A stretch of DNA of 59,392 bases, taken from NCBI GenBank assembly GCA_903907925.1, contig CAIVQB010000062.1, positions 1-59,392 on the forward strand, written 5' to 3'. Made by a program: the position numbers and the translations under genes. Under the pieces are notes generated by a model. That model was not told the origin of the DNA and did no database searches. It worked only from the letters and a program-made list of their open reading frames with translations. Each line of letters opens with the position of its first letter. The first letter of the stretch is position 1. Origin of the DNA: an uncultured Verrucomicrobiota bacterium (GTDB lineage: Bacteria > Verrucomicrobiota > Verrucomicrobiia > Limisphaerales > UBA9464). Of this stretch, positions 26,109 through 42,146 are shown in pieces.

Positions 26109-28814
26109 ATGGCCGCCGCTCCATCCAGTCCCCGGCGACACTCGGACCGAAGCCTCACCGGGTTCGGCCGGAGCCGGTGCAGTCATGCCTGGATCGCCGC
26201 GGGGATCGTGTTCGCGGTGCTGCTGCTGGCCGGACGGGTCGGCGCGGTGGAGGTTAGCGAAGGCGAAGACAAACTCCGGACGGGCGATTACGCCGGGGTC
26301 ATCGCCCTAGCGGAAAAAGCACTCCGGGAAAAAGATTCGTCCGAGGAATGGCCACTGTTGCAGGGGCGCGCCTTGTTGACGGTCGGACGTTATCCCGAAG
26401 CACGATCTGCCCTGACCAACGCCCTGACGCGGTTTTCCCGGAGCGTTCGCATTCACTGGCTGGCCCGCGAGGCGTTCCTGGCCTCCGGTCATCCGGACGA
26501 AGCCTCCGACGCCCTGGATCAGATCAAGGATTTCATTACCGGACGTTCCCCGGCGTTCCGGGATCCTCCCAGCATGGTGGTCTTTGCCCGGGTCGCACTG
26601 TCGCTTGGTGCAGATCCGAAGGTGGTTCTGGAACGACTGCTGGACCCGGTTCGAAAGGCTGATCCACGACTGACCGACGCCTCACTGGCCCGCGGGGAAC
26701 TCGCGCTAGACAAGCACGATTTCGCCCTCGCCGCCAAGGCGTTCGAGGACGGGCTTCAACATCATCCCGACGAGCCGGATCTCTTGTACGGAATGGCCCG
26801 AGCAGTAGGCGAAACGTCGCGCAGTGCCCTGGCGGAGAAATTGGAAGCGGCGCTGAAGATCAATCCACGTCACATCCCCAGCCTGCTCCTGGTGATCGAT
26901 CACCGAATTGACGCCGAAGATTATTCCGGTGCACGGAAGGGATTGGATGAAGTGTTGGCGATCAATCCCTGGAATCCGGAGGCCTGGGCCTATCGAGCAG
27001 TCATTGAACATCTGCGAAATGACACAGCGGCGGAACGCACCGCGCGCGAGTCGGCCCTCAAATTCTGGCCGGACAATCCGCGGGTGGATCATTTGATCGG
27101 GCTCAAGTTGTCCCAGAAATACCGGTTTGCCGAAGGCGCGTCGCATCAGCGGCAGGCCCTCAAGTTCGATGAGTCCCATCTGCCCGCCCGGGCTCAACTC
27201 GCCAGCGATCTGCTCCGTCTGGGTGACGAATCCGAGGGCTGGCGGCAGGCGACCGCCGTTCATGAGAAGGACGGCTACGACGTGGCGGCGTTCAATCTGG
27301 TGACATTGCACGACACCATGGCCCGGTTCACCACCCTGACCAATGCCCGGTTTGCGGTCCGGATGGCTTCCAATGAGGCCGGTCTCTACGGCGGACGCGT
27401 GCTGGCGTTGCTCGACCGAGCCCAGGCGAAGTTGGTCGCCAAATATGGCCTGGAACCGGTGGCTCCGACGCTGGTGGAGATTTTTGCGGATCAAAAGGAT
27501 TTCGGCGTCCGGACCTTCGGCATGCCGGAGAACCCGGGTTATCTCGGGGTCTGTTTTGGGCGGGTGGTGACCGCCAACAGCCCCGCCGCCACGCGCAGTC
27601 ATCCTGTCAATTGGGAGGCCGTCCTGTGGCACGAGTTCACCCACGTCATCACGCTTCAAATGACCGCCAACAAAATGCCGCGTTGGTTGAGCGAGGGCAT
27701 TTCGGTTCATGAAGAGCTTCAGGAAAACCCGTCCTGGGGTCAGCACATGACTCCGCGCTACCGGTCGATGATCCTGGCCGGCGAGCTGACTCCGGTCTCC
27801 CGGTTGAGCGGTGCGTTCATGGCCCCCAAGACGCCATTCCATCTTCAGTTCGCCTATTTTGAATCTGCGATGGTGGTGGATTTCATTGTCGAACGATTCG
27901 GACCGGAATCCATCCGCAGCATCCTGATCGATTTGAAGGAAGGGGTGGAAATCAACGAAGCCATTCGGAGACACACCCGGGCGATGCCTGAACTGGAGAA
28001 GGAATTTACCGCCTACGCCCGCGACCGGGCGCAACGGCTCGGTCCCGGACTCGATTGGGAACCCCCCGGTGGAGGTGGCGATGGCTCCGCACCGTCCGTC
28101 CCCAAGGTGCCGACTCCGGGAGAGTTATTGCGCGGCACCCTCGGCGCGAAACTCGCCGCCGCTCCGGTGGACATGGCGCCGTGGGCCAAGGCGCATCCGA
28201 CCAATTATTGGGCGATTCAGTACCGGGCGAAGGAGGCGATGACCGCCCACAAATGGACCGAAGCCCTTGCGGAACTCGATACCCTGGTGGCGCTCTCTCC
28301 CAATCAGGTGGGGGGAGACAGCCCCTGGCGCTCGATCGCCAAGGTCTGTCGCGAACTGGGCAACACCGACCGCGAGCAGGCGGCGTGGATGCGGCTCGCG
28401 GCGTTGGATGATGAGGCGACCGATGCTTATGAGCGGCTGATGGAACTGGGTGCCGCTGCCGGAAATGGGCCGCTGGTTTTGGAAAACGCACGCCGGTATC
28501 TCGCGGTGAACCCACTGGTGGCGCTGCCGTATCGCCGACTGGCCGACGCCGGCGAAGCGTCCGGAGACACGGCAGGCGCGATTGACGCGTGCCGGGCGCT
28601 GTTGCAACTCGATCCGGCCAATCCTCCCGACATCCATTTCCAACTCGCCCGGCTGCTGCAATCCGATCAACCCGCCGCCGCCCGCCGACATTTATTGCAG
28701 ACTTTGGAGGAAGCCCCACGGCATCGAGGCGCGCTGCAACTGCTGGCCCGCCTTGGTCCTTCGCCCGAACCGGCTCCGCAAAAGCCCGAACCCACGGACA
28801 GCCCGCGCCCATGA
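26109..28814 (+). CDS. TPR protein with peptidase MA-like metallohydrolase domain
   Basis: 901 residues. One transmembrane/signal helix lies at about residues 37-52. Tetratricopeptide-like helices fill about 55-400 and again 690-880. Between them sits a gluzincin-like domain: H508-E509-x-x-H512 (WHEFTHVITLQ) with E529 in WLSEGISVHEE as the third metal ligand. Such peptidase-MA domains in long TPR proteins are typical of the PVC group and occur near envelope operons. Its stop overlaps the next start by ATGA, which makes it the first gene of an eight-gene block. A periplasmic, membrane-tethered zinc protease is the best reading. Substrate is unknown. Confidence 0.85.
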   Translation: MAAAPSSPRRHSDRSLTGFGRSRCSHAWIAAGIVFAVLLLAGRVGAVEVSEGEDKLRTGDYAGVIALAEKALREKDSSEEWPLLQGRALLTVGRYPEARSALTNALTRFSRSVRIHWLAREAFLASGHPDEASDALDQIKDFITGRSPAFRDPPSMVVFARVALSLGADPKVVLERLLDPVRKADPRLTDASLARGELALDKHDFALAAKAFEDGLQHHPDEPDLLYGMARAVGETSRSALAEKLEAALKINPRHIPSLLLVIDHRIDAEDYSGARKGLDEVLAINPWNPEAWAYRAVIEHLRNDTAAERTARESALKFWPDNPRVDHLIGLKLSQKYRFAEGASHQRQALKFDESHLPARAQLASDLLRLGDESEGWRQATAVHEKDGYDVAAFNLVTLHDTMARFTTLTNARFAVRMASNEAGLYGGRVLALLDRAQAKLVAKYGLEPVAPTLVEIFADQKDFGVRTFGMPENPGYLGVCFGRVVTANSPAATRSHPVNWEAVLWHEFTHVITLQMTANKMPRWLSEGISVHEELQENPSWGQHMTPRYRSMILAGELTPVSRLSGAFMAPKTPFHLQFAYFESAMVVDFIVERFGPESIRSILIDLKEGVEINEAIRRHTRAMPELEKEFTAYARDRAQRLGPGLDWEPPGGGGDGSAPSVPKVPTPGELLRGTLGAKLAAAPVDMAPWAKAHPTNYWAIQYRAKEAMTAHKWTEALAELDTLVALSPNQVGGDSPWRSIAKVCRELGNTDREQAAWMRLAALDDEATDAYERLMELGAAAGNGPLVLENARRYLAVNPLVALPYRRLADAGEASGDTAGAIDACRALLQLDPANPPDIHFQLARLLQSDQPAAARRHLLQTLEEAPRHRGALQLLARLGPSPEPAPQKPEPTDSPRP

Positions 28815-29686
28815 AACGCCGCGGGATCATGGCCTTTGTGTTTTTGGTCGGAGCAGCCGGACTGCTGGCCCAATGGGGTGGCGGCGGTCGGGGCAGGGGT
28901 GGCGGCTGGGGCGAAAGCTGGATTTCGGAGGACGCACGCACCGCGCGGGAGGTTCACAGTCACAGCACGGGAACGCCGAATTGGACGAATCCGAAGGGCT
29001 TCGAAAAGGACGTGTTCACCTTCGCCCGCATCCGGCGGGATCGGAATCCTCGCAGCACTGGTGGTTCCTGGTCCACCGATGCGCCGGACAGCGATCTCAA
29101 TCTGTCGTATCGCCTGCAGCAGATGACCTCGCTGCGGGTTGATCCGAACGGCCGTTTCCTTCGGCTCACCGATCCTGATCTCAAGGACTATCCGTTCATC
29201 TACATGGTCGAACCGGGAAGTCTCTACCTCAGTCCGCCCGAAATCGCGGCGCTGCGGGCCTATCTCTTGAACGGTGGTTTTTTGATGCTCGATGATTTTT
29301 GGGGTGAACGCGAGTGGGCCAACGCCGAGGCGGTATTAAACGAGGTCCTGCCCGGCCAGTCGTTTCAGGAACTACCGTTGAGTCATCCGATCTATCACTG
29401 CGTGTTTGAGATTTCCGCCAAGGGCCAGGTTCCCAATGTTCACCTGGGCATTCAGAGCGAGTTTGATCCCGAACATCGCACCTGGGAACGCGGAGATGCC
29501 CGCGAGGTGCATCACCGCGCCTGGCTCGACGAACACGGCCGGATCATGGTCATCGCGACGCACAACACCGACAACGGCGACGGTTGGGAGCGCGAAGGTG
29601 AGAGTGACTTTTACTTCCACAACTTTTCCGAAAAAATCGCCTATCCCCTCGGCATCAACATCATTTTCTACGCATTAACTCACTGA
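28811..29686 (+). CDS. DUF4159-domain exported protein
   Basis: 291 residues from ATG 28811 (overlaps the previous stop). A signal helix is followed by a short Gly/Arg-rich stretch. The DUF4159 core shows VFTFARIRRDR, NLSYRLQQMTSLRVDP, LSPPEIAALRAYLLNGGFLMLDDFWGE and HPIYHCVFEI. The fold resembles a glutamine-amidotransferase-like (flavodoxin) sheet without obvious catalytic residues. DUF4159 proteins are usually encoded beside MoxR/DUF58/BatA genes, as here. Role unknown; a periplasmic component of the MoxR machine. Confidence 0.85.
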   Translation: MKRRGIMAFVFLVGAAGLLAQWGGGGRGRGGGWGESWISEDARTAREVHSHSTGTPNWTNPKGFEKDVFTFARIRRDRNPRSTGGSWSTDAPDSDLNLSYRLQQMTSLRVDPNGRFLRLTDPDLKDYPFIYMVEPGSLYLSPPEIAALRAYLLNGGFLMLDDFWGEREWANAEAVLNEVLPGQSFQELPLSHPIYHCVFEISAKGQVPNVHLGIQSEFDPEHRTWERGDAREVHHRAWLDEHGRIMVIATHNTDNGDGWEREGESDFYFHNFSEKIAYPLGINIIFYALTH

Positions 29687-30724
29687 ATGAATGCCACCCC
29701 TGATTCCGAATCGATGCCGGTTCCGCCGGTTCTGCCCTCCGACAGCGAGACCTTTCAACGGCTGGCCGCCGGCCGGGAACGGATCGGGACCGAATTGGGC
29801 CGCGTCATCGTCGGCCAGCGCGAGGTGATCGACCAGATCCTGATCGCGCTCTTCGCCGGCGGGCATTGCCTGATCACCGGCGCGCCGGGACTGGCCAAGA
29901 CGCTGCTCGTCAAATCGATCGCCTCGATCTTTGACCTGCGCTTCCAGCGGATCCAGTTCACTCCGGATCTGATGCCGGCGGACATCACCGGTACTGAAAT
30001 CCTCCAGACCGTTGGCGACGAACGACGGCTGCATTTCATTCGCGGCCCGGTGTTCGCCCAAATTCTGCTCGCCGACGAAATCAACCGGACTCCGCCCAAA
30101 ACTCAGGCGGCCCTCCTTGAGGCGATGCAGGAACATCAGGTGACCGCGGCCGGTGTCCGTTATCCGCTCGAGGAACCGTTTTTCGTCCTCGCCACGCAGA
30201 ACCCCATTGAAATGGAAGGAACCTATCCGCTGCCGGAAGCGCAGTTGGATCGGTTTATGTTCAACGTGGTCATTGATTATCTCCCCGCCGCAGACGAGGC
30301 GGAAGTGGTTGCGCGCACCACCAGTGGATCTGCCCCGGCGCTGCAGGCGCTGTATTCAGGTGCCGATGTCCTGCGCTTCCATGAGTTCGTGCGGAAGGTT
30401 CCCATCGATGCCGCCCTGGTGCGTTATGCGGTCGATCTCGCCGCGGCGTCGCGTCCGCGTCAGCCGGGGACACCGGACTTTGTGAATGAGACAGTGTCGT
30501 GGGGCGCCGGCACTCGCGCCGCGCAGTTCCTGGTGCTCGGAGCCAAGGCCCGCGCCCTGCTGGCTGGCCGGACCCATGTCACGATCGACGACCTGAAAAT
30601 CCTGGCGCTGCCGGTCCTGCGTCACCGGATTCTTCTCAACTACCGAGCCGATGCCCAGGGATTGAAGGTGGACGATATTGTTCGCCGCCTTCTGGAAGCC
30701 GTTCGTTCACCCGTTGCCGGATGA
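29687..30724 (+). CDS. MoxR-family AAA+ ATPase
   Basis: 345 residues. Walker A GAPGLAKT at 65-72, Walker B ILLADEINR with D130-E131, then the sensor 1 block VLATQNPIEMEGTYPLPEAQLDRF, standard for MoxR. The C-terminal lid is also present. MoxR ATPases act as chaperones that remodel or load metal into VWA-domain partners. Starts immediately after the TGA of the DUF4159 gene and overlaps the DUF58 gene by ATGA. It is the likely motor of the block. Confidence 0.95.
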   Translation: MNATPDSESMPVPPVLPSDSETFQRLAAGRERIGTELGRVIVGQREVIDQILIALFAGGHCLITGAPGLAKTLLVKSIASIFDLRFQRIQFTPDLMPADITGTEILQTVGDERRLHFIRGPVFAQILLADEINRTPPKTQAALLEAMQEHQVTAAGVRYPLEEPFFVLATQNPIEMEGTYPLPEAQLDRFMFNVVIDYLPAADEAEVVARTTSGSAPALQALYSGADVLRFHEFVRKVPIDAALVRYAVDLAAASRPRQPGTPDFVNETVSWGAGTRAAQFLVLGAKARALLAGRTHVTIDDLKILALPVLRHRILLNYRADAQGLKVDDIVRRLLEAVRSPVAG

Positions 30725-31695
30725 AGTCCCCCGGTTCCAGCGGAGCGCAGCAGTCCGGTGATCTCATCGATCCCCGGGCATTGATGGCGCTTGGAAACCT
30801 GGAACTCCGGGCACGGGCGGTGGTCCGCGGCTTTGCCACCGGCCTGCATCGCAGCCCGCGTCACGGGTTTTCCGTGGAGTTCACCGAATACCGTCAATAC
30901 ACGCCCGGCGACGACTTGCGGCATCTGGACTGGCGGGTGTTCGGTCGCACGGATCGCTACTATCTCAAGCGATTCGAGGAAGAGACCAATCTCCGCTGCC
31001 ACCTGGTCGTCGATCAGAGCCGTTCGATGGAATTTGCCAGTGGCGGGATTACCAAGGCGGTGTATGCCGCCACCCTGGCCGCGACGCTGGCCTGTTTTCT
31101 GCAACTTCAGGGCGATGCGGTTGGGCTGCTGACGCTGGATGAAGAACTCCGTGATTTCATTCCTGCCCGATACCGCACCGGCCATTTGCGACAATTGATG
31201 CTCGCGCTCGAACGCGCGCCGGCGGGTCGGGCGACGGACCTCGGATTGGCGCTGGAACGTCTGGCGGACCTCATTCCGCACCGCGGGTTGGTCGTCGTCG
31301 TCTCGGATTTTCTGGTTCCAGTCGAAAGCCTGATGTCGCGGTTGCGGCGCCTGACCGCTTGCGGGCATGAGGTCGTTTTGTTTCAGGTGCTCGATCCGGC
31401 GGAGATTGTCTTCGGATTTGATCAGCCGACTCGTTTTCGTGATTTGGAAACCGGCCAGTTGATGGAAGTCGATCCCGGCGCAGCGCGGGCTGGTTATCGG
31501 ACGCGCTTTGATGCCCATCAGGCCCGGCTTCGCGATGGATGCGTGGGGCTGGGCATCGCCTTTCACCGCGTGGAGACGTCGCAGCCGCTGGAACTGGCGC
31601 TGCTGGCGTTCCTTGAACAACGCGAGCGACGGGTTGGAGGTCGCAGCCCGCAGTTCGCCGCCCCGGCCGATGTGACGTTGGAGGCAACGCGATGA
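30721..31695 (+). CDS. DUF58-domain protein (VWA-like)
   Basis: 324 residues from ATG 30721. The signature YTPGDDLRHLDWRVFGRTDRYYLKRF spans residues 60-85. The VWA metal site is DQSRSM (98-103), followed by VVVVSDFLVP for the second loop. No membrane helix is visible, so it is probably a cytoplasmic partner of MoxR. ATGA overlaps link it to MoxR upstream and to the BatA-like gene downstream. Confidence 0.92.
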   Translation: MKSPGSSGAQQSGDLIDPRALMALGNLELRARAVVRGFATGLHRSPRHGFSVEFTEYRQYTPGDDLRHLDWRVFGRTDRYYLKRFEEETNLRCHLVVDQSRSMEFASGGITKAVYAATLAATLACFLQLQGDAVGLLTLDEELRDFIPARYRTGHLRQLMLALERAPAGRATDLGLALERLADLIPHRGLVVVVSDFLVPVESLMSRLRRLTACGHEVVLFQVLDPAEIVFGFDQPTRFRDLETGQLMEVDPGAARAGYRTRFDAHQARLRDGCVGLGIAFHRVETSQPLELALLAFLEQRERRVGGRSPQFAAPADVTLEATR

Positions 31696-33824
31696 ACTTC
31701 CTCGCGCCCCTCTTTCTGGCGGGAATCGCCGCCGTGGCCCTGCCGGTTATCTTCCATCTCATCCGGCGCAAGACCAGTGAACAAACCCCGTTCAGTTCGC
31801 TGTTGTTCCTCCGCGTTTCACCGCCGCGCCTCACCAAAAGAAGCCGGCTTGAGGATCTCCTGCTGCTCTTCCTGCGCTGTGTGGCCCTGGCGTTGATCGC
31901 TGCCGCGTTTGCGCGCCCGTTTCTACGTCGACCGGTGGATCCCGCCGTCGGAACACAGGGCGCGCGAAAATGGATCCTGCTGGTCGACACCAGTGCCTCC
32001 ATGCGGCGCGCCGGGCTCTGGGACGCCGCGCGCGAGCGGGTGAAGAAGGTTTTGGACACTACCCAGGCCGGCGATGCGGTTGCGGTTTACACCTTCGATC
32101 GACGCATCACTCCGGTCGTCAGCTTCGAACAGTGGAGGGCCCAGCCTGCCGGGGATCGGGTCGGCTTTGTTCGTGGACGCCTCGCGTCGGTCTCACCCGG
32201 TTGGGCTTCGACCGATCTCGGGACCGCCCTGGTACGAGCCGCGGAGGAGATTGCGGATCCCGGATCCGGAGGGCAGGCCAACACCGGGCCGCTGCAGGTG
32301 ATTCTGATTGGTGACCTCCAGGAAGGGGCTCATCTGCAGGCGCTCTCAACCTATGAATGGCCGAAATCGGTCAAGCTGGTGGTGGAATCAGTCGCCGCGA
32401 AAAGCGCCGGCAACGCGGGAATCCAGTGGGTCGGCGGCGCTGCGGAATCGGCCGGGGATCCGGGTGCCGGAGTCCGGGTGCGCGTCAGCAACTCGGCCGA
32501 TGCCCGCCGTGAACAGTTCGAGGTGGTGTGGGTTCGACCGGGCACGGATGAGATTCTCTCCAGCCCGATCCCGGCCTACGTGCCGCCGGGCCAGAGTCGG
32601 GTGGTGTCGTTGTCGGTCACCAATTCCACGGGCGAACCGCGAACGGTGCTGCTTCGAGGTGATGATGAATCCTTCGACAATCGGGTCGCAGTCCTGCCGC
32701 CCGAACCTGCCCGCATCGAAATTCTCTATCAGGGATCCGATGACGGCACCGATGCCCGGCAACCTTTGTTCTTCCTTCGACGCGCCCTCGAAGGAAACCC
32801 ACGTCAACGGGTTCATTTTACCGTGCGGCATCCGGATGCGGCAGTGGCACCCGCCGAGGATGCGGTGGCTGATCTGATTTTTGTGACGACGCCGCTGACG
32901 GATCGGCGGACCGCTGCGTTGCGCGAACAAATGACCGCGGGCCGGACCGTCGTGTTGGTGCCGCCTGCCGGTGATACCTCGGGGACCCTCGCCGGGCTTT
33001 CCGGTCAGGCGGGGATGACCTTCGAAGAATCGGTGATCAAACGTGACGCCCTGCTGGGGGAGATCGATTTCCGGCATCCCTTTTTTCTGCCATTTGCCGA
33101 CCCGCGTTTCAGCGATTTCACCCGGATCCATTTTTGGAAATATCGGAAGATTGATGCCGGCCGGCTTCCGAATGCGCGGGTTCCCGCGCGGTTTGATTCA
33201 GGTGATCCAGCGGTTCTCGAACTGCCGGTCGGACGCGGTCGATTGGTGATTCTCACCTCGGGCTGGCAGCCGTCAGACAGTCAGTTGGCGGTCTCGTCGA
33301 AGTTCATCCCGTTGATCCAATCGCTTTTGGAATCCACCGGAGTGGGCGCCGCGCCACCGGCACAATTCTTCGTCGGAGATCCAGTTTCGTTGGAGGCCGA
33401 TTCGAACGGTGGGCGCGTGGTGCGAACCCCGGGTGGACGAATGGTGACGGTTGAAAAGGGCGCGACGACGTTCGCCGAGACATGGGAGCCTGGAGTTTAT
33501 TCCGTTGAGGCGACGGAAGCTCCCGGCCGGGTGGTGCGACGGTTCGCGGTCAATGTGGATCCGCAGGAAAGCCGGACGGTTCCGATGCCTGCGGAAACGC
33601 TGGAACGATTCGGCGCTCCGCTGGCGACTGCTCCGCTTGCGGCGAATCCACCGCCGGACCGGGCGGCGTTGCTCGCCGGTGCGGAAGCCGAGGCGCATCA
33701 GAAGCTTTGGAAATGGGTGCTGGCGGGAGCCCTGGGATTTCTGCTGCTGGAAACGGCCCTCGCGGCTGCCACCGGACAGCGGTCCGCGGCATCAATGGAA
33801 GTTCAACCGGAAGGCATGGCATGA
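31692..33824 (+). CDS. BatA-like membrane VWA protein
   Basis: 710 residues. The N-terminal BatA domain has one helix (residues 4-23), the cytosolic link HLIRRKTSEQTPFSSLLFL and a second helix (55-76). The VWA domain starts at WILLVDTSASM (94-104), with an intact DxSxS site. The middle contains Ig-like and amidotransferase-like segments (RIEILYQGSDD; VADLIFVTTPLTD). A C-terminal helix lies at about 672-692. Most of it faces the periplasm. This is the central VWA partner of MoxR in Bat operons. Confidence 0.88.
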   Translation: MNFLAPLFLAGIAAVALPVIFHLIRRKTSEQTPFSSLLFLRVSPPRLTKRSRLEDLLLLFLRCVALALIAAAFARPFLRRPVDPAVGTQGARKWILLVDTSASMRRAGLWDAARERVKKVLDTTQAGDAVAVYTFDRRITPVVSFEQWRAQPAGDRVGFVRGRLASVSPGWASTDLGTALVRAAEEIADPGSGGQANTGPLQVILIGDLQEGAHLQALSTYEWPKSVKLVVESVAAKSAGNAGIQWVGGAAESAGDPGAGVRVRVSNSADARREQFEVVWVRPGTDEILSSPIPAYVPPGQSRVVSLSVTNSTGEPRTVLLRGDDESFDNRVAVLPPEPARIEILYQGSDDGTDARQPLFFLRRALEGNPRQRVHFTVRHPDAAVAPAEDAVADLIFVTTPLTDRRTAALREQMTAGRTVVLVPPAGDTSGTLAGLSGQAGMTFEESVIKRDALLGEIDFRHPFFLPFADPRFSDFTRIHFWKYRKIDAGRLPNARVPARFDSGDPAVLELPVGRGRLVILTSGWQPSDSQLAVSSKFIPLIQSLLESTGVGAAPPAQFFVGDPVSLEADSNGGRVVRTPGGRMVTVEKGATTFAETWEPGVYSVEATEAPGRVVRRFAVNVDPQESRTVPMPAETLERFGAPLATAPLAANPPPDRAALLAGAEAEAHQKLWKWVLAGALGFLLLETALAAATGQRSAASMEVQPEGMA

Positions 33825-36800
33825 TGTCACCTTTGCTCCAATTGCGACTTCGGCCGGTGATCCGCCGGTGCCGGACACTCCGTTGGTTCCGCGACCTCGC
33901 CCTGGTGTGGACCATCGCCGCCGCTGCGTCGGGCCTGGTGTGGCTCGCTCAACGCCATTGGGGCGTCCTGCCGGTGGTGTGGAGCGGATTGATCCCGCTC
34001 GGGGCGGTGGCAGCCGCGATATGGCGGACAGTCGTCGTGCTTCGAACTCCTCCCGATTCGGGCGAAGCGGCGCGAAGAGTGGAACAACGGCATCCTGAAT
34101 TACAGGGACTCCTGACCACCGCAGTGCAGCAGAAGCCCGATGCCACCGGTCGCTATCACTTTCTCCAACAACATCTGATCGAAGAGGCCATCGGCCACAG
34201 TGTTCGCAATCGCTGGCCGCGGGTGGTGCCATTCTCCCGCGTTCTGATGGGCTTTGCCGTGCAGACGGCTGCCTTCCTGGCTCTGGTGCTCATCTGTACT
34301 CATTCGGTGGATCCGAAGGCCCGGGTTGCTGCGGCGCGGCGCGTGGCAGCGGCCTCGGGCATTGAGATCACGCCGGGCGATGCGGTCATCGAACGGGGAT
34401 CCAGCCTGGTGGTGCTGGCCCGGTTCGGAACACCACCGGCCGCGGGTGCGGAATTGGTGCTGACTACCACTACGAATGAACCATCGCGCCGGATCAGCCT
34501 CGTCCGGAGCCTCGCCGATCCAGTGTTCGGCGGACGTGTTCCGGAGGTTTCGCGCGATCTGGTCTATCATGTGGAGTACGCCAACAGCCGGAGCCGTGAC
34601 TATACGGTGACGGTGTTCGATCGGCCCCGGTTGGATCACGCCGACGTTCAGCTCACCTTTCCGGGCTACACCGCCCTTCCGCCGAAAGAGATCAAGGACA
34701 CGCATCGGGTCAGTGCCGTGGAAGGGACGAAGATGTCGTGGCAATTCCACCTGAACAAACCGGTTCGACTGGCAGTCCTCACGGCCCGGAACGGTGCCTC
34801 GAACCGGATCGATCTTCCCATCGAGCCCGGAAACTCCACCGTCGCCTGGACCAATGTGCCGTTGCAGTTCAGCACGACGTATGAGTTGCACCTGACCGAT
34901 GCGGAAGGCCGGACCAACAAGGCTCCGGCACTGTTCGTATTTGAAGCCCTGTCCAACCGCGCACCGGAATTGAAGCTGGCCTCACCGCGTGGGGATCTCC
35001 GGCCGTCCGCGCTGGAGGAGGTTTCATTCGACGGCACGGTCTGGGATGATTTTGGTGTTGCGGCGTTCGGCATCGCGCTCACCCGGCCCGGATCGGAAAC
35101 GCAGTTCATCGAACTCGGTCACGCCGTGGCCGGCCGGGAGAAACGCAGCTTCCATCATGTGGTGAAGCTGGAGGAATTGGGGGTCAAGCCGGACCAATTG
35201 GTGGCCTGGTTCACCTGGGCTGATGACACCGGACCCGATGGCGAAGTCCGCCGGACCACCGGTGATTTATATTTCGCCGAGGTTCGGCCGTTCGATGAGA
35301 TCTTTCGCGAGGGGCAGGGTGGTGAGGAAGGCGGCGACAATGCGGAGGCGGGTGGCGCCGGCGGTGCGGGTGGGGGCGATCCCGGCGCAAAACTCGCCGA
35401 GCTCCAAAAACAGGTCATCAACGCGACCTGGAAATTGCAGCGCCTGCAAGGGAACCGGCCTCGGAACGGCAGTGGCGGGACAGGTCATTCGGCACCCGCC
35501 CAGATCGGGAATCCGCCCACGTCCATGATGCCGACGAAGGCACCCGCGGCTGGGTTCGTCGGAGATCGATCTGAAGTCCGCCTCGATTGGATCGGAAGTG
35601 CCGCCGGCGTGTTTGGTCAGGTCGCGCCGCAATCGGCTGATGGGCCGGCACCGCGTCGGATCGATCGTCGCGCCGCTTCAGCGGGATCGACCAATTATCC
35701 TGCGACACGGCTCGCTTCGTCTCCCGCTGATGGGAAACGGAGTTCCGGAAGTTTCGAGGACGATTTGCAGGCGGTCCGTGAGGGGGCGCAACAGGCGTTG
35801 GACCAGGCGCAGGAATCGATGGAACAGGCCCAGAATCCGGAAAGCCGCCGGCTGTGGCAGGCGGCGATCGCAGCAATGGAACGATCGTTGGATCAACTGG
35901 GCAAATCGCTCAAATCCACTCAGGCGCTGGCCGAGGCCCTGGTCGAAGAACAGGCCGCCTATCAGACACTGTTGCAATTGCGGGCCAGGGAAACCGAGGT
36001 CACCCGTTCGCGGAACCGTTCATCTGGTCAGGGCCAGGGAGGTGCCGCCAACCAGCGCCAGATGAATCAACTCGATCTCACCCAGGCCGAGAATCATTAC
36101 GAAACCCAGCGATCCGCCCAGGCCCCGCAGACCGCGGAACGCCGTGGACAATTGCAGGTGCTCAGCCGTCTGCAGGAGCTCGCCCGGCGTCAGCAGGACG
36201 TCAACGACCGTCTCCGCGAACTGCAGACCGCGCTGCAGGAGGCGCGGAATGCCGAGGAACGCACCGAGATTCAACGGCGGCTCAAACGCCTGCAGGAAGA
36301 GCAGCAGCAGATGCTCTCGGACGTGGACGAGGTTCAGCAGCGGATGAACCGGGCGGAAAACCAATCGCAGATGTCCGAGCAGCGGCAGCAGATGGAACAA
36401 ACGCGCGAGGACCTTCAGAAGGCCGCCCAAGCGACCGGCGATGGCCGGGTGTCGCAGGCGCTGGCTTCCGGTAGCCGCGCCCAGAACCGTCTGCAACAGA
36501 TGCGCGACGATTTGCGAAAGGACAGTTCCAACGCCTTCTCCGATGAATTGCGGCAGTTGCGGTCCGAGGCGCGTGAGGTTCAGCGCCGGGAAACGGACAT
36601 CGCCCAACAGCTTCGAAGCCTCGGGGCGAACCGTCAAAAGCGCCTGACCGATTCGAATGATTCGAACGATTCCGGAAATCTCGTGCAGCAATTGGCCGAT
36701 CAGAAGAAGGCGATCACCAACCTGGTCGAGCGCGCCACCCAGGTCTCGCAACAGTCCGAAACCTCGGAACCGCTGCTATCGCGACAGCTCTACGACACGC

Positions 36801-37981
36801 TCCGCACGTTTCAGCAGGAGGATCCGGGAGCAGTGAGCCGCCTTCAGGATAGTTTGGTTCAAAGCGGCGAAATGAACCGTAGTTTGAACGACAAGCTTCA
36901 GGAGATTGGAACCCACGAATCCGGACGCGCGGTCGAGGCCACGGCAGAGTTGCTCCGACAGGGGTTGGGTTCGGCTGCCGGCCAGGCGGAACGGGAAGCG
37001 CGAAAAGGAATCGACACCCTGAAGAATGGCATCGAACGCGCCGCTGAACGGATCCTGGGCGACGACAGTGAAGCGCTTCGGCTCGCCGGTGACGAAATCG
37101 ATTCGCTCTCCCGGCAGTTGGAACAGGAAATCGCCAAGAACGGCGGGTCCAGCAACGGAACCGATCCAGGCAAGGGATCGGCGGGACGACAACCAACTGA
37201 ACCCGGTGGCACAACGCCGAACGGCCGTCCTGGAGGGTCGGGGAATGCTCCAGGACAACCCGGTGATCCGTCGCCGTCGGATTCAGCAGGATCGAGTTCG
37301 CGTGGTTCTCAACCGGCTTCTACGTCAAACGCCGGACAACCCGGGGCCGAGTCAGCATCCGGGACGGAGCCTGGAGCCGAATCGCAAGCGGCGCAGGGTG
37401 GATCGGGCGCATCCGGAAGTGGTCGGCCAACTCCTGGTTCACAACGCCAAAACGCCTCGACCGATCCAGCAAATCGTTCCGGACAACGCGGTCAACAAGG
37501 TCAACCGGGTCAGGGCGGACAGCAGGCCCAAGACGGACAGCCCGGACAAGGCGGCGGCGGGGATTTGGGTGGCACCGATCTGGGCGGAATTCTTGGCGGA
37601 GACGATGGCGGCACTTCGGGCCGTGGTGGTGGCGGACGGGGAGGACCGATCACCGGTTCGGATTTTGGGCCGTGGTCGGATCGGCTTCGCGATGCAGAGG
37701 ACATGGTGGACCTGCCCGAATTGCGCAGCGGCATTGCAGCGGCCCGGGAGCGGGCCCGACTCGCCCGGTTGGAATATCGGCGCGATGGAAAGAAACCGGA
37801 TTGGGCGGTCGTGGAGTTGCAGGTGTTGAAACCGCTGGTGGAGGTGCGCCAGCAAATCCGCGACGAACTCGCGCGCCGCACGCCGCAGGATGCATTGTCG
37901 CCGATTGATCGCGACGCCGTTCCGTTGCGGTTTACCGAACAGGTGCGGCATTACTACGAGACCCTGGGCAAGGATAAATGA
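33821..37981 (+). CDS. Large DUF4175-like membrane/coiled-coil protein
   Basis: 1386 residues from ATG 33821 (ATGA overlap). Two helices lie at about 27-45 and 49-68 and a third near 138-157. Beta-rich, Ig-like segments run to about 520 (for example VQLTFPGYTALPPKEI, the DUF4175 hallmark region). Then come a Gly-rich linker and a coiled coil of about 450 residues (roughly 650-1100) that is very rich in Gln and Arg. A low-complexity tail of Gly, Gln, Ser and Pro (about 1106-1280) precedes a charged C-terminal domain with DMVDLPELRSGIAAARERARLAR. It looks like a periplasmic strut or fibre anchored in the inner membrane. The family name is a moderate-confidence call. Confidence 0.65.
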   Translation: MMSPLLQLRLRPVIRRCRTLRWFRDLALVWTIAAAASGLVWLAQRHWGVLPVVWSGLIPLGAVAAAIWRTVVVLRTPPDSGEAARRVEQRHPELQGLLTTAVQQKPDATGRYHFLQQHLIEEAIGHSVRNRWPRVVPFSRVLMGFAVQTAAFLALVLICTHSVDPKARVAAARRVAAASGIEITPGDAVIERGSSLVVLARFGTPPAAGAELVLTTTTNEPSRRISLVRSLADPVFGGRVPEVSRDLVYHVEYANSRSRDYTVTVFDRPRLDHADVQLTFPGYTALPPKEIKDTHRVSAVEGTKMSWQFHLNKPVRLAVLTARNGASNRIDLPIEPGNSTVAWTNVPLQFSTTYELHLTDAEGRTNKAPALFVFEALSNRAPELKLASPRGDLRPSALEEVSFDGTVWDDFGVAAFGIALTRPGSETQFIELGHAVAGREKRSFHHVVKLEELGVKPDQLVAWFTWADDTGPDGEVRRTTGDLYFAEVRPFDEIFREGQGGEEGGDNAEAGGAGGAGGGDPGAKLAELQKQVINATWKLQRLQGNRPRNGSGGTGHSAPAQIGNPPTSMMPTKAPAAGFVGDRSEVRLDWIGSAAGVFGQVAPQSADGPAPRRIDRRAASAGSTNYPATRLASSPADGKRSSGSFEDDLQAVREGAQQALDQAQESMEQAQNPESRRLWQAAIAAMERSLDQLGKSLKSTQALAEALVEEQAAYQTLLQLRARETEVTRSRNRSSGQGQGGAANQRQMNQLDLTQAENHYETQRSAQAPQTAERRGQLQVLSRLQELARRQQDVNDRLRELQTALQEARNAEERTEIQRRLKRLQEEQQQMLSDVDEVQQRMNRAENQSQMSEQRQQMEQTREDLQKAAQATGDGRVSQALASGSRAQNRLQQMRDDLRKDSSNAFSDELRQLRSEAREVQRRETDIAQQLRSLGANRQKRLTDSNDSNDSGNLVQQLADQKKAITNLVERATQVSQQSETSEPLLSRQLYDTLRTFQQEDPGAVSRLQDSLVQSGEMNRSLNDKLQEIGTHESGRAVEATAELLRQGLGSAAGQAEREARKGIDTLKNGIERAAERILGDDSEALRLAGDEIDSLSRQLEQEIAKNGGSSNGTDPGKGSAGRQPTEPGGTTPNGRPGGSGNAPGQPGDPSPSDSAGSSSRGSQPASTSNAGQPGAESASGTEPGAESQAAQGGSGASGSGRPTPGSQRQNASTDPANRSGQRGQQGQPGQGGQQAQDGQPGQGGGGDLGGTDLGGILGGDDGGTSGRGGGGRGGPITGSDFGPWSDRLRDAEDMVDLPELRSGIAAARERARLARLEYRRDGKKPDWAVVELQVLKPLVEVRQQIRDELARRTPQDALSPIDRDAVPLRFTEQVRHYYETLGKDK

Positions 37982-37982
37982 C

Positions 37983-40367
37983 GTGACATCCGGGTTTCCG
38001 ATTACCTTTTCCGGCGCGAGTTGGCTGTGGCCGCTCGTCGGTGTGGTGCTGACGGCGCTTGTGCTGTTGGTCTGGGGATTGCGTGCTTCCCCGGCCGGTG
38101 CAGCGGGCCGCTGGAGCGTTCTGCTCAAGATCGTGGCGCTGATCGCCCTGGCGTTGTGCTTGCTGGAACCGCTTTGGAACGGCAGCCACGCGGTTCCGGG
38201 AGCCAATCTGTTCGCCGTCGTGGTGGACAACAGCCAGGGGCTTCAAATCCATGACGCTGGCAGCCAGCGGAGTCGTGGCGAGCAGCTCCAGGCTTTGTTG
38301 GAATCAGGGCGTTCCACGTGGTTGAGCCGATTGGCGGAGACCTTTGATGTCCGGCGTTATCTCTTCGATGCGCGGTTGCAGGGATCGCGCGATTTTTCCG
38401 ACCTCGATTTCCAGGGTCGTTCCTCGGCAATCGTGGGAGCGCTGCAGGGCGTTGGTGAACGTCATCGCGGCCGGCCGCTGGCCGGCATCCTGTTGTTGAC
38501 CGACGGCAATGCGACCGATGTCCACGGCGGTCTGCCCCAACTCGCCGGACTGCCGCCGGTGTATCCGGTGGTTCTCGGCGACGGCGGTGCGTTGAAGGAT
38601 GTCTCCTTGAAACAGGTGACGACGGAACGCAGTGCGTTCGAGGACGCGCCGGTCGTGGTTCAAGCCCAGGTGGAAACCTACGGATTTCGCGGCGAATCGA
38701 TCATTGCCCGGGTGACCGATCGCGCCAGCAAGGTGGTGCAGGAGCAGACCGTGTCGGCTCCCGGAAACGGCGGCACCGTGCCGCTGCGTTTCCAACTCAA
38801 GCCCGCCGGGTCTGGTGTTTCATTCTATCAGGTGGGAGTTCGGACAGCCGGCGAGTCGGCGGGGGGTGCCTTCCACACCAACAGCGCCGAGGCGACGCTC
38901 GCGAACAACACCCGGATCGTGGTGGCAGATCGCGGACGCGGACCGTATCGGATTCTGTATGTCGCCGGACGGCCCAACTGGGAGTTCAAGTTCCTCAACC
39001 GCGCTCTGCAGGAGGATGATCAGCTCCAGATGGTGGGCCTGATCCGAGTGGCCAAGCGCGAGCCAAAGTTCGATTTTCGCGGGCGGGCGGGTGAAACCGG
39101 CAATCCGTTGTTTCGCGGATTCGGCGATCAAACGCGCGAGGCGGCGGAGCGTTATGATCAACCGGTCCTCAGTCGGATCAATCCGAAGGACGCGCTCGAA
39201 CTGCGCAGCGGTTTTCCCAAAACGCCTGAGGAGTTGTACGCCTATTCCGCGGTGATTGTGGACGATCTGGAGGCGGAATTCTTTTCGGCCGACCAGGCGG
39301 CGTTGTTGCAGAAGTTTGTCTCCGAGCGCGGCGGCGGCTTCCTGATGCTGGGCGGAATGGAATCGTTTCAACAGGGACAATACCGGCGGAATCCCGTCGG
39401 CGACATGCTCCCGGTCTATCTCGACAAAGCCGAGGAAGCGAGGTCCTCGGGTCCGATGCGATTCGCGCTGGCCCGCGAAGGCTGGCTTCAACCGTGGGCT
39501 CGGGTACGCGACAACGAGCTCGATGAAAAGACCCGACTCGAGGGAATGCCCCGGTTCGAGGTCGTCAATCGGGTCGGCGACGCCAAACCTGGGGCCTCGG
39601 TCATCGCCACCGTCGCCGATGAGGCTGGTCAGGAAGTGCCCGCGTTGGTGGTGCAACGGTTTGGTCTGGGCCGGACGGCGGCATTGACGGTCGGCGACGT
39701 GTGGCGATGGGGCATGAAGGATTCAGCAGCCCATGCTGACATGGACAAGAACTGGCGACAGTTGATCCGCTGGCTGGTGGCTGATGTTCCCAACCGGGTG
39801 GATCTTTCCGCGGAGCCGGTCCCCGGAGATCCCAACGGCGCGGTTCGCCTGCAGGTGCGCGCTCGCGATGCCCGCTATCAACCGCTCGACAACGCTTCCG
39901 TGACACTTGAGGTCGAGCCGGTGGTCTTTCACGCGGACGGATCGTCGACCAACCGGGAGCGTACTTTGCGCCTCCAGGCGGATGCGTCGGGCACCGAGCC
40001 CGGGGTATATGAGACGGTCTACGTCCCGCGATTGACCGCCGGTTTCAAGGCCACCGCGGTGGTCACTGATTCCGAGCGCGTCGAAGTCGGACGTTCGGAA
40101 GCGGGATGGAGCACCGACCTGGCCGCCGAGGAATTCGCCTCGCTGGTTCCGAATCGCGCCCTTTTGGAACAGATCGCCAAATCGACGCGGGGCGAGGTGG
40201 TCGACGCGTCCCGACTCGACGCCTTTGTCCGTCAGCTCGCGTCCCGGCCGGTGCCGGTGATGGAGCCGTGGTCGCGGCCGCTCTGGCACACGCCGGTGCT
40301 GTTTGCCATCGCCATCGGATGCCTGCTGGGAGAGTGGGGCCTCCGGCGTTGGAAAGGACTCCCATGA
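37983..40367 (+). CDS. Membrane protein with VWA-like and glutamine amidotransferase-like regions
   Basis: 794 residues from GTG 37983, one base after the previous stop. Helices lie at about 13-33 and 45-62. A VWA-like region starts at LFAVVVDNSQG (76-86), but the metal motif DxSxS is altered to DNSQG. Later parts are PYRILYVAGRPNWEFKFLNRAL, AYSAVIVDDLEAEFFS and GGGFLMLGGMESF, a class I glutamine-amidotransferase-like sheet of the type fused to BatA-like proteins, without a clear nucleophilic Cys. A C-terminal helix (TPVLFAIAIGCLLGEWGL) ends the protein. Likely a periplasmic-facing structural or sensing partner in the MoxR block. Confidence 0.75.
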   Translation: MTSGFPITFSGASWLWPLVGVVLTALVLLVWGLRASPAGAAGRWSVLLKIVALIALALCLLEPLWNGSHAVPGANLFAVVVDNSQGLQIHDAGSQRSRGEQLQALLESGRSTWLSRLAETFDVRRYLFDARLQGSRDFSDLDFQGRSSAIVGALQGVGERHRGRPLAGILLLTDGNATDVHGGLPQLAGLPPVYPVVLGDGGALKDVSLKQVTTERSAFEDAPVVVQAQVETYGFRGESIIARVTDRASKVVQEQTVSAPGNGGTVPLRFQLKPAGSGVSFYQVGVRTAGESAGGAFHTNSAEATLANNTRIVVADRGRGPYRILYVAGRPNWEFKFLNRALQEDDQLQMVGLIRVAKREPKFDFRGRAGETGNPLFRGFGDQTREAAERYDQPVLSRINPKDALELRSGFPKTPEELYAYSAVIVDDLEAEFFSADQAALLQKFVSERGGGFLMLGGMESFQQGQYRRNPVGDMLPVYLDKAEEARSSGPMRFALAREGWLQPWARVRDNELDEKTRLEGMPRFEVVNRVGDAKPGASVIATVADEAGQEVPALVVQRFGLGRTAALTVGDVWRWGMKDSAAHADMDKNWRQLIRWLVADVPNRVDLSAEPVPGDPNGAVRLQVRARDARYQPLDNASVTLEVEPVVFHADGSSTNRERTLRLQADASGTEPGVYETVYVPRLTAGFKATAVVTDSERVEVGRSEAGWSTDLAAEEFASLVPNRALLEQIAKSTRGEVVDASRLDAFVRQLASRPVPVMEPWSRPLWHTPVLFAIAIGCLLGEWGLRRWKGLP

Positions 40368-41362
40368 AGAATCTGCGCCGCTGGCTGGCTGGGTTGTTGC
40401 TGGGCCTGACAGTATCGGCCGATCCGGTTTCGACGGCTGGCACCACGCCGCCCGGCGGTGCCGACGATCTGCCCCGGGTGTGGGTCGTGGTCGGTGCGGA
40501 AGGGGAATCCGAATTCGGCGTCCGGTTCCGTTCCCAAGCCGCGCACTGGACCAACGCCTGTTTCAAGGCCGGTGTGGAATGTCGCGTCCTCGGAGTCGCC
40601 GACCCCGGTGCGGAATCGGACCGGGATCAGTTGCACCGGATGATTCAGGCAGAACCCACCAACGGGATTGTGCCGTTGTGGATTGTGTTGATCGGTCACG
40701 GCACCTGGGATGGTCACGAGGCGAAGTTCAACCTGCGTGGCCCGGACCTCAGCGCGTCGGAGTTGGCGCAATGGTTGAAGCCGAATTCGCGACCCCTCGC
40801 GGTCATCAACACCGCCGCGGCGAGCGCTCCTTGGATTCCCGCACTGACGGGTCCGCGACGGGTGGTGATCACCGCGACCCGCAGCGGCGACGAACAGAAT
40901 GCGACGCGGCTTGGTGATGCGCTGGCCGAAGCGATTGCGGATCCGTCCGGCGACCTCGATCAAGACGGACAAACCTCGTTGCTGGAGGCCTTTCTCAAGG
41001 CGTCGGCACGGACCGCCGAGTGGTATCAGACCGCAGGGCGACTCGCGACCGAGCACGCGTTGATCGATGACAACGGTGACGGAATGGGGACGCCCGCCGC
41101 GTGGTTTCGCGGAACCCGCGCGACGCGGACTGCGGCCGACGGTGCTCGATTGGATGGCTCCGTTGCGCGGCAATTCGTCCTGCTGCGGAGTCCGTTGGAA
41201 CAGAAGATGACTGCGACGCAGCGAACCCGCCGGGACGCCGTGGAACTCGAATTATCGCGATTGCGTGAACGCCGCCCGGCGTCACCCAACGATGCGTATT
41301 ACCGGAAGGTTGAAGCGCTGGCTCTGGAACTGGCCCGACTGCAGCCGCAAGCCAGTCCCTGA
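40364..41362 (+). CDS. Caspase/legumain-like protein, probably inactive, with EF-hand
   Basis: 332 residues, signal peptide at the N-terminus. LWIVLIGHGTWDG (105-117) provides the His of a CD-clan peptidase. The strand that should end with the catalytic Cys reads LAVINTAAASAPW (145-157), with Ala or Ser in its place. RRVVITATRSGDEQNATRLGDALAEA follows as in family relatives. A canonical EF-hand loop is visible from D197 to E208 (DLDQDGQTSLLE), and a second Asp/Asn-rich turn is at 235-240. It is the last gene of the MoxR block (ATGA overlap) and ends 8 bp from a convergent gene. Family placement is by motif pattern only. Confidence 0.6.
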   Translation: MKNLRRWLAGLLLGLTVSADPVSTAGTTPPGGADDLPRVWVVVGAEGESEFGVRFRSQAAHWTNACFKAGVECRVLGVADPGAESDRDQLHRMIQAEPTNGIVPLWIVLIGHGTWDGHEAKFNLRGPDLSASELAQWLKPNSRPLAVINTAAASAPWIPALTGPRRVVITATRSGDEQNATRLGDALAEAIADPSGDLDQDGQTSLLEAFLKASARTAEWYQTAGRLATEHALIDDNGDGMGTPAAWFRGTRATRTAADGARLDGSVARQFVLLRSPLEQKMTATQRTRRDAVELELSRLRERRPASPNDAYYRKVEALALELARLQPQASP

Positions 41363-41370
41363 AACGGAAG

Positions 41371-41967
41371 TCAGCGAGTCCCGGCCCGGAATTTTCGGCA
41401 CCACAGTGCGAGGCCTCCGAGAGCGCCGGCGGTTGCCAGCGTTGTTGAGACCGGCTCCGGCACCGCCGCGGTTAGGAACCCGCGAATCTCACCGCTGGGA
41501 AAGACATTGCTGTTGATGTTCAGGTAGGTTTCCCCCGCCGCCATCGCACTTGTCAGCGCCGCTTCAGCGGATGCAGCCGTTCCGCCGTTCGCAACGACAA
41601 AGGAGGGGTTGTAAGATAACGGCGACGTCAGGTCGAACAGGTGCGAGTAGGTGCCGCTGGTGGTGCCCAACGGAAACCCGACGAAAGTGGGGGTCATGGT
41701 CGCAACCCCGGCAGTTCCCGTCCCGGCCACCGTCGTAGGACCGTGGATATGGGATGCCGTTGTGGTGCCAGCCAGACCGGAGAACGTGATGTCCACCTGG
41801 AGTGTGTGGGCTCCAAGATCATACGCCACGGTAGCGGAGCCGATTCCGGGGGAGACATTGGGCGGGGACTCAGCAGGGCCCGACAGTGTCGCCTCATAAA
41901 CTAACACCTGGCCGTGGGAGTGAATGGCAAAAAGAAGTGCCGTCGCACAGAGAAGTTTTGATTTCAT
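41371..41967 (-). CDS. CHRD-domain protein with PEP-CTERM sorting signal
   Basis: 198 residues. A signal peptide (MKSKLLCATALLFAIHSHGQ) is followed by one CHRD domain: YEATLSGPAESPPNVSPGIGSATVAYD, ASHIHGP, and the ending LNINSNVFPSGEIRGFL. The C-terminus VPEP, a hydrophobic helix, then CRKFRAGTR is a PEP-CTERM signal, which directs proteins to exosortase for processing and display or secretion. The exosortase gene is not in the window. ATG 41967 was chosen for the signal peptide; the track frame continues about 100 residues upstream without support. Confidence 0.88.
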   Translation of the reverse strand: MKSKLLCATALLFAIHSHGQVLVYEATLSGPAESPPNVSPGIGSATVAYDLGAHTLQVDITFSGLAGTTTASHIHGPTTVAGTGTAGVATMTPTFVGFPLGTTSGTYSHLFDLTSPLSYNPSFVVANGGTAASAEAALTSAMAAGETYLNINSNVFPSGEIRGFLTAAVPEPVSTTLATAGALGGLALWCRKFRAGTR

Positions 41968-42146
41968 AGGCAGGGCAGTCACCGATCGACGGGGTTCATG
42001 ACAGTTCATCGTACCGAGTCGTCCGATGCGGGATACTGAAAAACCAGCAAACCGTCGAGGATCGAAGGCGTTGGAATGGCAGTGCAATCGGCATCCACCG
42101 GTTCCAAGGCTTGAACAGGGCCGGCCGGGACCGTCACTCTCTGCGG

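Follow-up and report, generated by a model that had tools for sequence, protein, structure and literature searches.

What is the role of a caspase-like protein that has kept the catalytic histidine, has no cysteine at the position of the nucleophile, and is encoded beside a MoxR system? The question is raised by a gene on contig CAIVQB010000062.1 of an uncultured Verrucomicrobiota bacterium, which was analyzed over a stretch of 59,392 nucleotides (the window). The gene is the last of a run of genes on one strand, directly preceded by a gene for a GATase1-like protein (the upstream neighbor), and its frame encodes 332 amino acids (P0001) with no internal stop. We favor, as moderately probable, the view that its product is exported and is a pseudopeptidase from the legumain (C13-like) branch of clan CD, acting as a non-catalytic binding or scaffold subunit. 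The original prediction, made from the letters of the window, had proposed an inactive, EF-hand-containing protein of the caspase/legumain fold at this place, and had considered it unusual.

P0001 was aligned with its homologues in a set of 72 operon-type rows, 42 from Verrucomicrobiota and 30 from Planctomycetota, with 69 rows forming the core and the bacterial C13-like proteins L009 and L102 serving as the outgroup. Duplicates (L010, in whose place P0001 stands, L032, L033, L034, L035, L041, and L059) do not enter the 72 rows, nor do L023 to L031, which are paralogues or distant loci (L030 being a short frame), or the 14 loci L112 to L125, which were inspected by eye only. The tree was a quick one, calculated for residues 38 to 326, and many of its forks are open. 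The open reading frame is a real gene under purifying selection. The ratio of nonsynonymous to synonymous substitution rates (dN/dS; Nei-Gojobori method NG86, residues 38 to 326) was 0.03 to 0.30 in 11 pairs, the values being only rough for the five pairs with a dS above 1.3, and 15 columns are fully invariant in the 69 core rows. These ratios, the invariant columns, and the linkage to neighboring genes described below speak against gene decay, i.e., a former peptidase that is now drifting, as the loss of the catalytic residue might suggest; this explanation was rejected on the strength of the dN/dS values and is highly improbable.

AlphaFold2 was used to model the whole protein (predicted local distance difference test [pLDDT], 66) and residues 35 to 277 (pLDDT, 70; predicted template modeling score, 0.67). 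According to these models, the core of P0001 is a clan CD fold, as anticipated in the original prediction, since clan CD structures rather than a different fold were returned by both VIA and Foldseek. For the model of residues 35 to 277, VIA gave Z scores of 15.3 for SAVED-CHAT, 14.6 for legumain (4n6o; root mean square deviation 2.8, 173 residues aligned), 14.1 for glycosylphosphatidylinositol transamidase, 13.7 for caspase-6, and 13.6 for metacaspase-4, and all 11 Foldseek matches at E ≤ 0.001 were metacaspases, caspases, or CHAT. The corresponding VIA scores of the whole-protein model were 14.0 for CHAT, 13.6 for caspase-6, and 13.4 for legumain.

Sequence comparison points indirectly but firmly to family C13: the profile of a 31-row family alignment (A2) matched a profile of bacterial C13-like proteins (A4) with a probability of 98.8 and an E value of 6.5e-17, and A4 in turn matched metacaspase-4 (2.2e-16) and plant legumain (vacuolar-processing enzyme; 2e-14) in the PDB. 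The operon-linked member L088 exceeds the Pfam C13 (PF01650) cut-off (28.2 versus 22.8 bits) and barely exceeds that of Peptidase_C14 (PF00656; 21.5 versus 21.4 bits); L007 stays below the C13 cut-off (18.3 versus 22.8 bits), and L060 has no C13 match at E ≤ 0.1. P0001 itself matched no family of Pfam and NCBIfam at E ≤ 1 and showed no Peptidase_C14 match, and comparison with the sequences of solved structures returned no clan CD protein for either P0001 or the A2 profile. The family resembles C13 in its fold, in the His block, and in the S-G-type loop after the nucleophile, and differs from it by the missing Cys nucleophile, the FNLRGPD motif, the C-terminal helical hairpin, and its fixed place beside MoxR-system genes. 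Within FNLRGPD, N123, L124, G126, and D128 do not vary in any of the 69 core rows; of these residues, L102 keeps only L124 and L009 keeps none. In the hairpin, E294 and Y312 are invariant throughout A2.

The retained histidine could be placed with ease: His112, within the IGHGTWDG block, is invariant in all 72 rows and in both outgroup proteins. At the position of the nucleophile, an alignment that runs without gaps through S154 up to residue 157 puts the Cys of the C13-type proteins (NPCHSGGF in L102, NPCYSGAV in L009) on Ala152 of P0001, as it does the Cys of L088 (HSACGSDGF), which suggests column 152 as the canonical Cys position. Column 150, which reads INC in planctomycetes, had been considered for this site and was dropped after residue numbering and the outgroups pointed to 152. 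In agreement with the Ala or Ser originally read at the Cys position, column 152 holds Ser in 60, Ala in 9, Pro in 2, and Cys in 1 of the 72 rows. The window protein reads Thr150, Ala151, Ala152, and Ala153 and is without Cys in either register, its only cysteines, C66 and C73, being far from the site and not conserved. The His-then-Cys dyad of clan CD is thus incomplete, with His112 present and Ala152 (or Thr150) in place of Cys. Judged from the alignment, loss of the nucleophile is family-wide and not confined to the gene of the window.

As to the course of this loss, the window's nearest relatives on the tree (L001 and L004) carry Ser152, so that Ala152 of P0001 looks like a recent further step. 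Cys152 is present in four operon-linked members from the planctomycete draw (L088, L113, L117, and L118), suggesting descent of the gene from an ordinary His-Cys enzyme, a direction that we infer; the tree requires at least 7 changes for Cys150 and at least 10 for column 152, counts that do not themselves give a direction. Among L112 to L125, the upstream neighbor lies within the retrieved stretch in seven loci, three with Cys152 (L113, L117, and L118) and four without Cys at positions 150 to 152 (L114, L120, L121, and L124), and just beyond the retrieved stretch in L119 and L122. A cysteine elsewhere in the sheet of the relatives had been named as contrary evidence in the original prediction, and this was found in part: Cys153 occurs in L049 (verrucomicrobial) and L075 (planctomycete), and Cys150, in the same strand/loop as column 152, in 21 of the 72 rows, every one of them planctomycete (the other nine planctomycete rows having T in 4, A in 3, S in 1, and L in 1), whereas a Cys at 150 or 152 is absent from all 42 verrucomicrobial rows.

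Several observations weigh against the reading of P0001 as a dead C13-like binding subunit. The two models are of moderate confidence, and most residues past approximately 224 have pLDDT values under 50, the second Asp loop and the C-terminal third being poorly modeled. With the whole-protein model, Foldseek gave one match at E ≤ 0.001 (caspase Dronc), and PurE/PAICS chains ranked directly after it, among caspases. P0001 lacks a Pfam C13 match at E ≤ 1, and the cases for calcium binding, export, association with the membrane, and complex formation are all drawn from the sequence. Furthermore, when A2 is aligned with A4 by hhalign, a gap of two residues appears and the C13 Cys comes to lie on column 150, and with Cys150 in 21 of the 30 planctomycete rows, activity may have been kept there. 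The last two points lead to the explanation that the nucleophile has moved, i.e., that the planctomycete Cys150 pairs with His112 in an active peptidase and that the verrucomicrobial and gemmatimonad copies, including that of the window, were inactivated later, with which the finding that Cys150 and Cys152 occur together in none of the 72 rows is in line. However, L088, L113, L117, and L118 have Cys152 in a loop of the same length, which speaks for 152 being the original position, column 150 is 140th of 297 columns in conservation over the core rows, and nine planctomycete rows do without Cys150; we therefore regard a moved nucleophile as unlikely. The same low likelihood is assigned to a composite history of one syntenic gene, in which the nucleophile was lost at 152, Cys150 would be a relocated active site in Planctomycetota, and the protein would be a dead structural or sensing subunit of one and the same MoxR-BatA machine in Verrucomicrobiota and Gemmatimonadota.

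The frequency of Ser152, together with the invariant His112, could also mean that the majority of the family are serine hydrolases with a caspase fold, Ser152 being the nucleophile and Ala152 of the window a local loss, as would fit the Ser152 of L001 and L004. Yet Ala or Pro occupies the position in 11 of the 72 rows, and the tree calls for a minimum of 9 changes between Ser and other residues; all 11 proteins retain E208, and the upstream neighbor is present in the window and in the other ten. In addition, Ser is the commonest substitute for Cys in pseudo-metacaspases (43%), according to PMC3501461. Catalysis by Ser152 is thus quite improbable.

The full EF-hand loop recognized in the original prediction was borne out by the alignment. 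P0001 has a canonical 12-residue loop with D197, D199, D201, G202, and E208, flanked by predicted helices at residues 178 to 192 and 206 to 223; in the 72 rows, D197 and E208 are found 72 times each, D201 71 times (Asn once), and D199 67 times (Asn five times). P0001 gave no Pfam EF-hand match at E ≤ 1, and L102 matched EF-hand_5 at E 0.075. In the second loop, DDNGDGMG, D236 is conserved in 69 of 69 core rows and D239 nearly so. This loop, like the planctomycete Cys150, had not been mentioned in the original prediction. A link between the EF-hand and the inactive state did not hold: both loops are also present in the C13-like proteins L102 and L009, which have the Cys, so that the EF-hand is not tied to loss of the nucleophile, and we rejected the idea that it distinguishes the inactive protein. 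The near-invariance of the two loops in the core family and the signal-peptide-like N terminus are compatible with a calcium-gated sensor, in which a calcium-dependent conformational change would inform the MoxR machine of Ca2+ outside the cytoplasm or of a released peptide. Against this, the same loops occur in the Cys-bearing relatives, and L117 and L118, which keep the His and Cys152, have lost the acidic residues of the EF loop, a pattern more in keeping with a structural role than with a sensing one; a sensor hence appears doubtful.

The place beside a MoxR system was likewise corroborated, with genes for MoxR, DUF58, and BatA proteins upstream on the same strand (Table 1). The run is called an operon because of the shared strand and the overlaps; the open reading frame starts of the gene at 33707 to 37981 and of those upstream of it were set mechanically. 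The MoxR protein of the window also matches bpMoxR with 34.9 bits (cut-off, 27). Hydrophobic segments, recognized by eye, indicate that the GATase1-like protein is probably membrane bound. A counterpart of the 1,424-residue protein is found upstream at more than 60 bits in seven of the eight loci L001 to L008, L006 being without it. Downstream of the run, a convergent gene on the minus strand (positions 41371 to 42270) encodes a CHRD-domain protein with a weak PEP-CTERM match below the cut-off.

Table 1. Positions in the window of the pseudo-legumain gene, its sequence features, and the neighboring genes
Feature	Position	Strand	Basis
Pseudo-legumain (C13-like, clan CD) gene	40364..41362	+	Open frame, homologues, purifying selection, predicted fold
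Signal-peptide-like N terminus, MKNLRRWLAGLLLGLTVSADPVSTAG	40364..40441	+	Judged by eye from sequence
IGHGTWDG block, residues 110-117, with His112 as the clan CD catalytic His	40691..40714	+	Alignment
FNLRGPD motif, residues 122-128, family specific	40727..40747	+	Conservation
INTAAASAPW, residues 148-157, putative nucleophile strand/loop with Thr150 and Ala152 at the expected Cys	40805..40834	+	
EF-hand loop DLDQDGQTSLLE, residues 197-208	40952..40987	+	Conservation, flanking predicted helices
Second Asp-rich (dockerin-like) loop DDNGDGMG, residues 235-242	41066..41089	+	
C-terminal helical hairpin, residues 284-326	41213..41341	+	Predicted helices 284-302 and 310-326
GATase1-like protein	37890..40367	+	Pfam GATase1_like, 43.2 bits; stop overlaps next start as ATGA
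1,424-residue protein	33707..37981	+	No Pfam family above cut-off
BatA/VWA protein	31692..33824	+	Pfam BatA, 61.3 bits; VWA_2, 34.2 bits
DUF58 protein	30499..31695	+	Pfam, 178.9 bits
MoxR AAA+ ATPase	29687..30724	+	Pfam AAA_3, 208.7 bits
DUF4159 protein	28589..29686	+	Pfam, 159.8 bits
TPR/Peptidase_MA_2 protein	26109..28814	+	Pfam

The gene is conserved across three phyla and, in two of them, kept beside the GATase1-like gene of a MoxR/DUF58/BatA run, so that the peculiarity ascribed to the locus by the original prediction was not upheld. The upstream neighbor is present on the same strand in 76 of 86 loci, the ten without it being L023 to L031 and also L036, whose contig stops at that point. 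Among 288 genomes of Verrucomicrobiota, a neighbor at E ≤ 1e-80 was found in 13, and exactly these 13 carry the caspase-like gene (E ≤ 1e-40). In the planctomycete phylum of Mariniblastus (343 genomes), the neighbor was found at E ≤ 1e-80 in 26 genomes, all 26 of which have the gene at E ≤ 1e-50; in a 27th genome with the gene (G650), the neighbor is cut by the contig end. These counts include the window's own genome and, for the Mariniblastus phylum, that of the query, and the cut-offs were picked after the match lists had been viewed. Weaker homologues of the neighbor (E ≤ 1e-20) occur in a further 9 verrucomicrobial and 112 planctomycete-draw genomes, and weaker caspase-like matches (E ≤ 1e-3) in a further 8 and 13, respectively; the two weaker sets overlap only partially, as would be expected if the GATase1-like family were larger than the operon. 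Within the family to which the window belongs, the gene occurs in 28 of 50 genomes, and a single genus accounts for 19 of the 22 that lack it. The third phylum is represented by the gemmatimonad Gemmatirosa kalamazoonensis, whose 1.1-Mb plasmid carries a permuted MoxR set with a Cys-less caspase-like gene (L152:3198-12240), comprising most of the same genes in the order GATase-like, caspase-like, TPR, DUF4159, MoxR, and DUF58. PADLOC returned nothing for P0001 or the upstream gene at E ≤ 0.01; L088 was a weak hit for "caspase" (7.3e-6), and the MoxR protein of the window one for mad8 (8.2e-5).

Only one caspase-like gene was found in the window's genome, which has no Pfam C13 or C14 match at E ≤ 1 and thus no obvious active partner, with the restriction that both models miss P0001 and that divergent partners would escape them likewise. 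The genome also contains a second, distant GATase1-like paralogue with 28% identity (G000:C29:9184-11538). Further relatives were seen outside the operon-type set. In L112, from the planctomycete draw and with no upstream neighbor seen, the HG block is lost (KGQ) and FNLAGPD and both Asp loops remain. The large planctomycete-draw frames L093 and L094 combine a C13 match, the HG block, and a DNGDG loop with Asn-Arg-Ser-Gly at the Cys site and are possibly another pseudo-C13 group. One genome has ten C13 matches in very long open frames (G445:C1). Three frames from the Verrucomicrobiota draw (L025:1-2223:-, L028:1186-3435:+, and L026:1-2187:-) join an N-terminal Cys-less caspase/C13-like part to a transglutaminase-type domain, which is below the Pfam cut-off in L028; DUF3857 is found in L025 and L028.

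With relatives in three phyla beside the same chaperone-type genes, P0001 is probably a binding subunit that does not cut. A structural or substrate-binding subunit best fits the combination of probable export, suggested by the N-terminal sequence, a conserved cleft that lacks the nucleophile, a pair of metal-type loops, a helical tail, and the MoxR-BatA gene set. Specifically, P0001 would reside on the outer face of the cytoplasmic membrane in association with the BatA and GATase1-like proteins, and the old substrate cleft, formed by His112, FNLRGPD, and the loop of residues 148 to 157, would still serve to bind peptides or proteins. By binding Ca2+, the Asp loops may keep the C-terminal half in shape, the C-terminal hairpin may act as a docking element, and the MoxR AAA+ ring may remodel the assembly that contains P0001.

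Dead clan CD proteins are already known in bacteria. Pseudo-orthocaspases are a described group (PMC6426788) with which the P0001 family shares the clan, the broken His-Cys dyad, Ser as the usual substitute for Cys, and the lack of an active partner in some genomes; they belong to the p20/C14 branch, and their commonest form is Tyr-Ser, with the His lost too, whereas the P0001 family has an invariant His and is linked by sequence to C13. The text of that article contains no occurrence of planctomycet- or verrucomicrob-. An intact dyad is present in 84% of the metacaspases surveyed and in 64% of those from Planctomycetes (PMC3501461). Related in context are the VMAP MoxR-vWA systems, in which, according to PMC7159879, inactive caspase-superfamily domains work with the MoxR-vWA pair, a precedent for what the original prediction had considered unusual. 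Peptidase domains occupy the vWA-fused position in approximately 9% of the VMAP conflict systems, approximately 70% of the caspase domains at this position are inactive, for which a peptide-binding or dominant-negative role was suggested, and MoxR-vWA pairs are described as chaperones remodeling complexes (same source). In those systems the domain is fused to vWA, whereas P0001 is a separate, probably exported protein encoded with BatA, DUF58, DUF4159, and GATase1-like genes. Raptor of mTORC1 offers a eukaryotic parallel, as its inactive caspase fold mediates substrate binding in a large complex (PMC6325617); it is cytosolic and shares with P0001 the fold alone, and it was a weak Foldseek match of the 35-277 model (E 8.1e-3, rank 50). 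Nearer relatives are the bacterial C13-like proteins L102 and L009, with the EF-hand and DDNGDG loop in common. Nothing describing the P0001 family was among the literature matches listed, most subscription journals being outside their scope.

To our knowledge, little is understood of what MoxR-BatA gene sets do, and a pseudo-legumain in one form of these sets, found in planctomycetes and verrucomicrobia, would provide a new handle on them. The loss of the nucleophile with conservation of the cleft in a syntenic gene would make this family a clean case of a protease turned into a binding protein, and the difference between Cys150 and Cys152 is directly testable.

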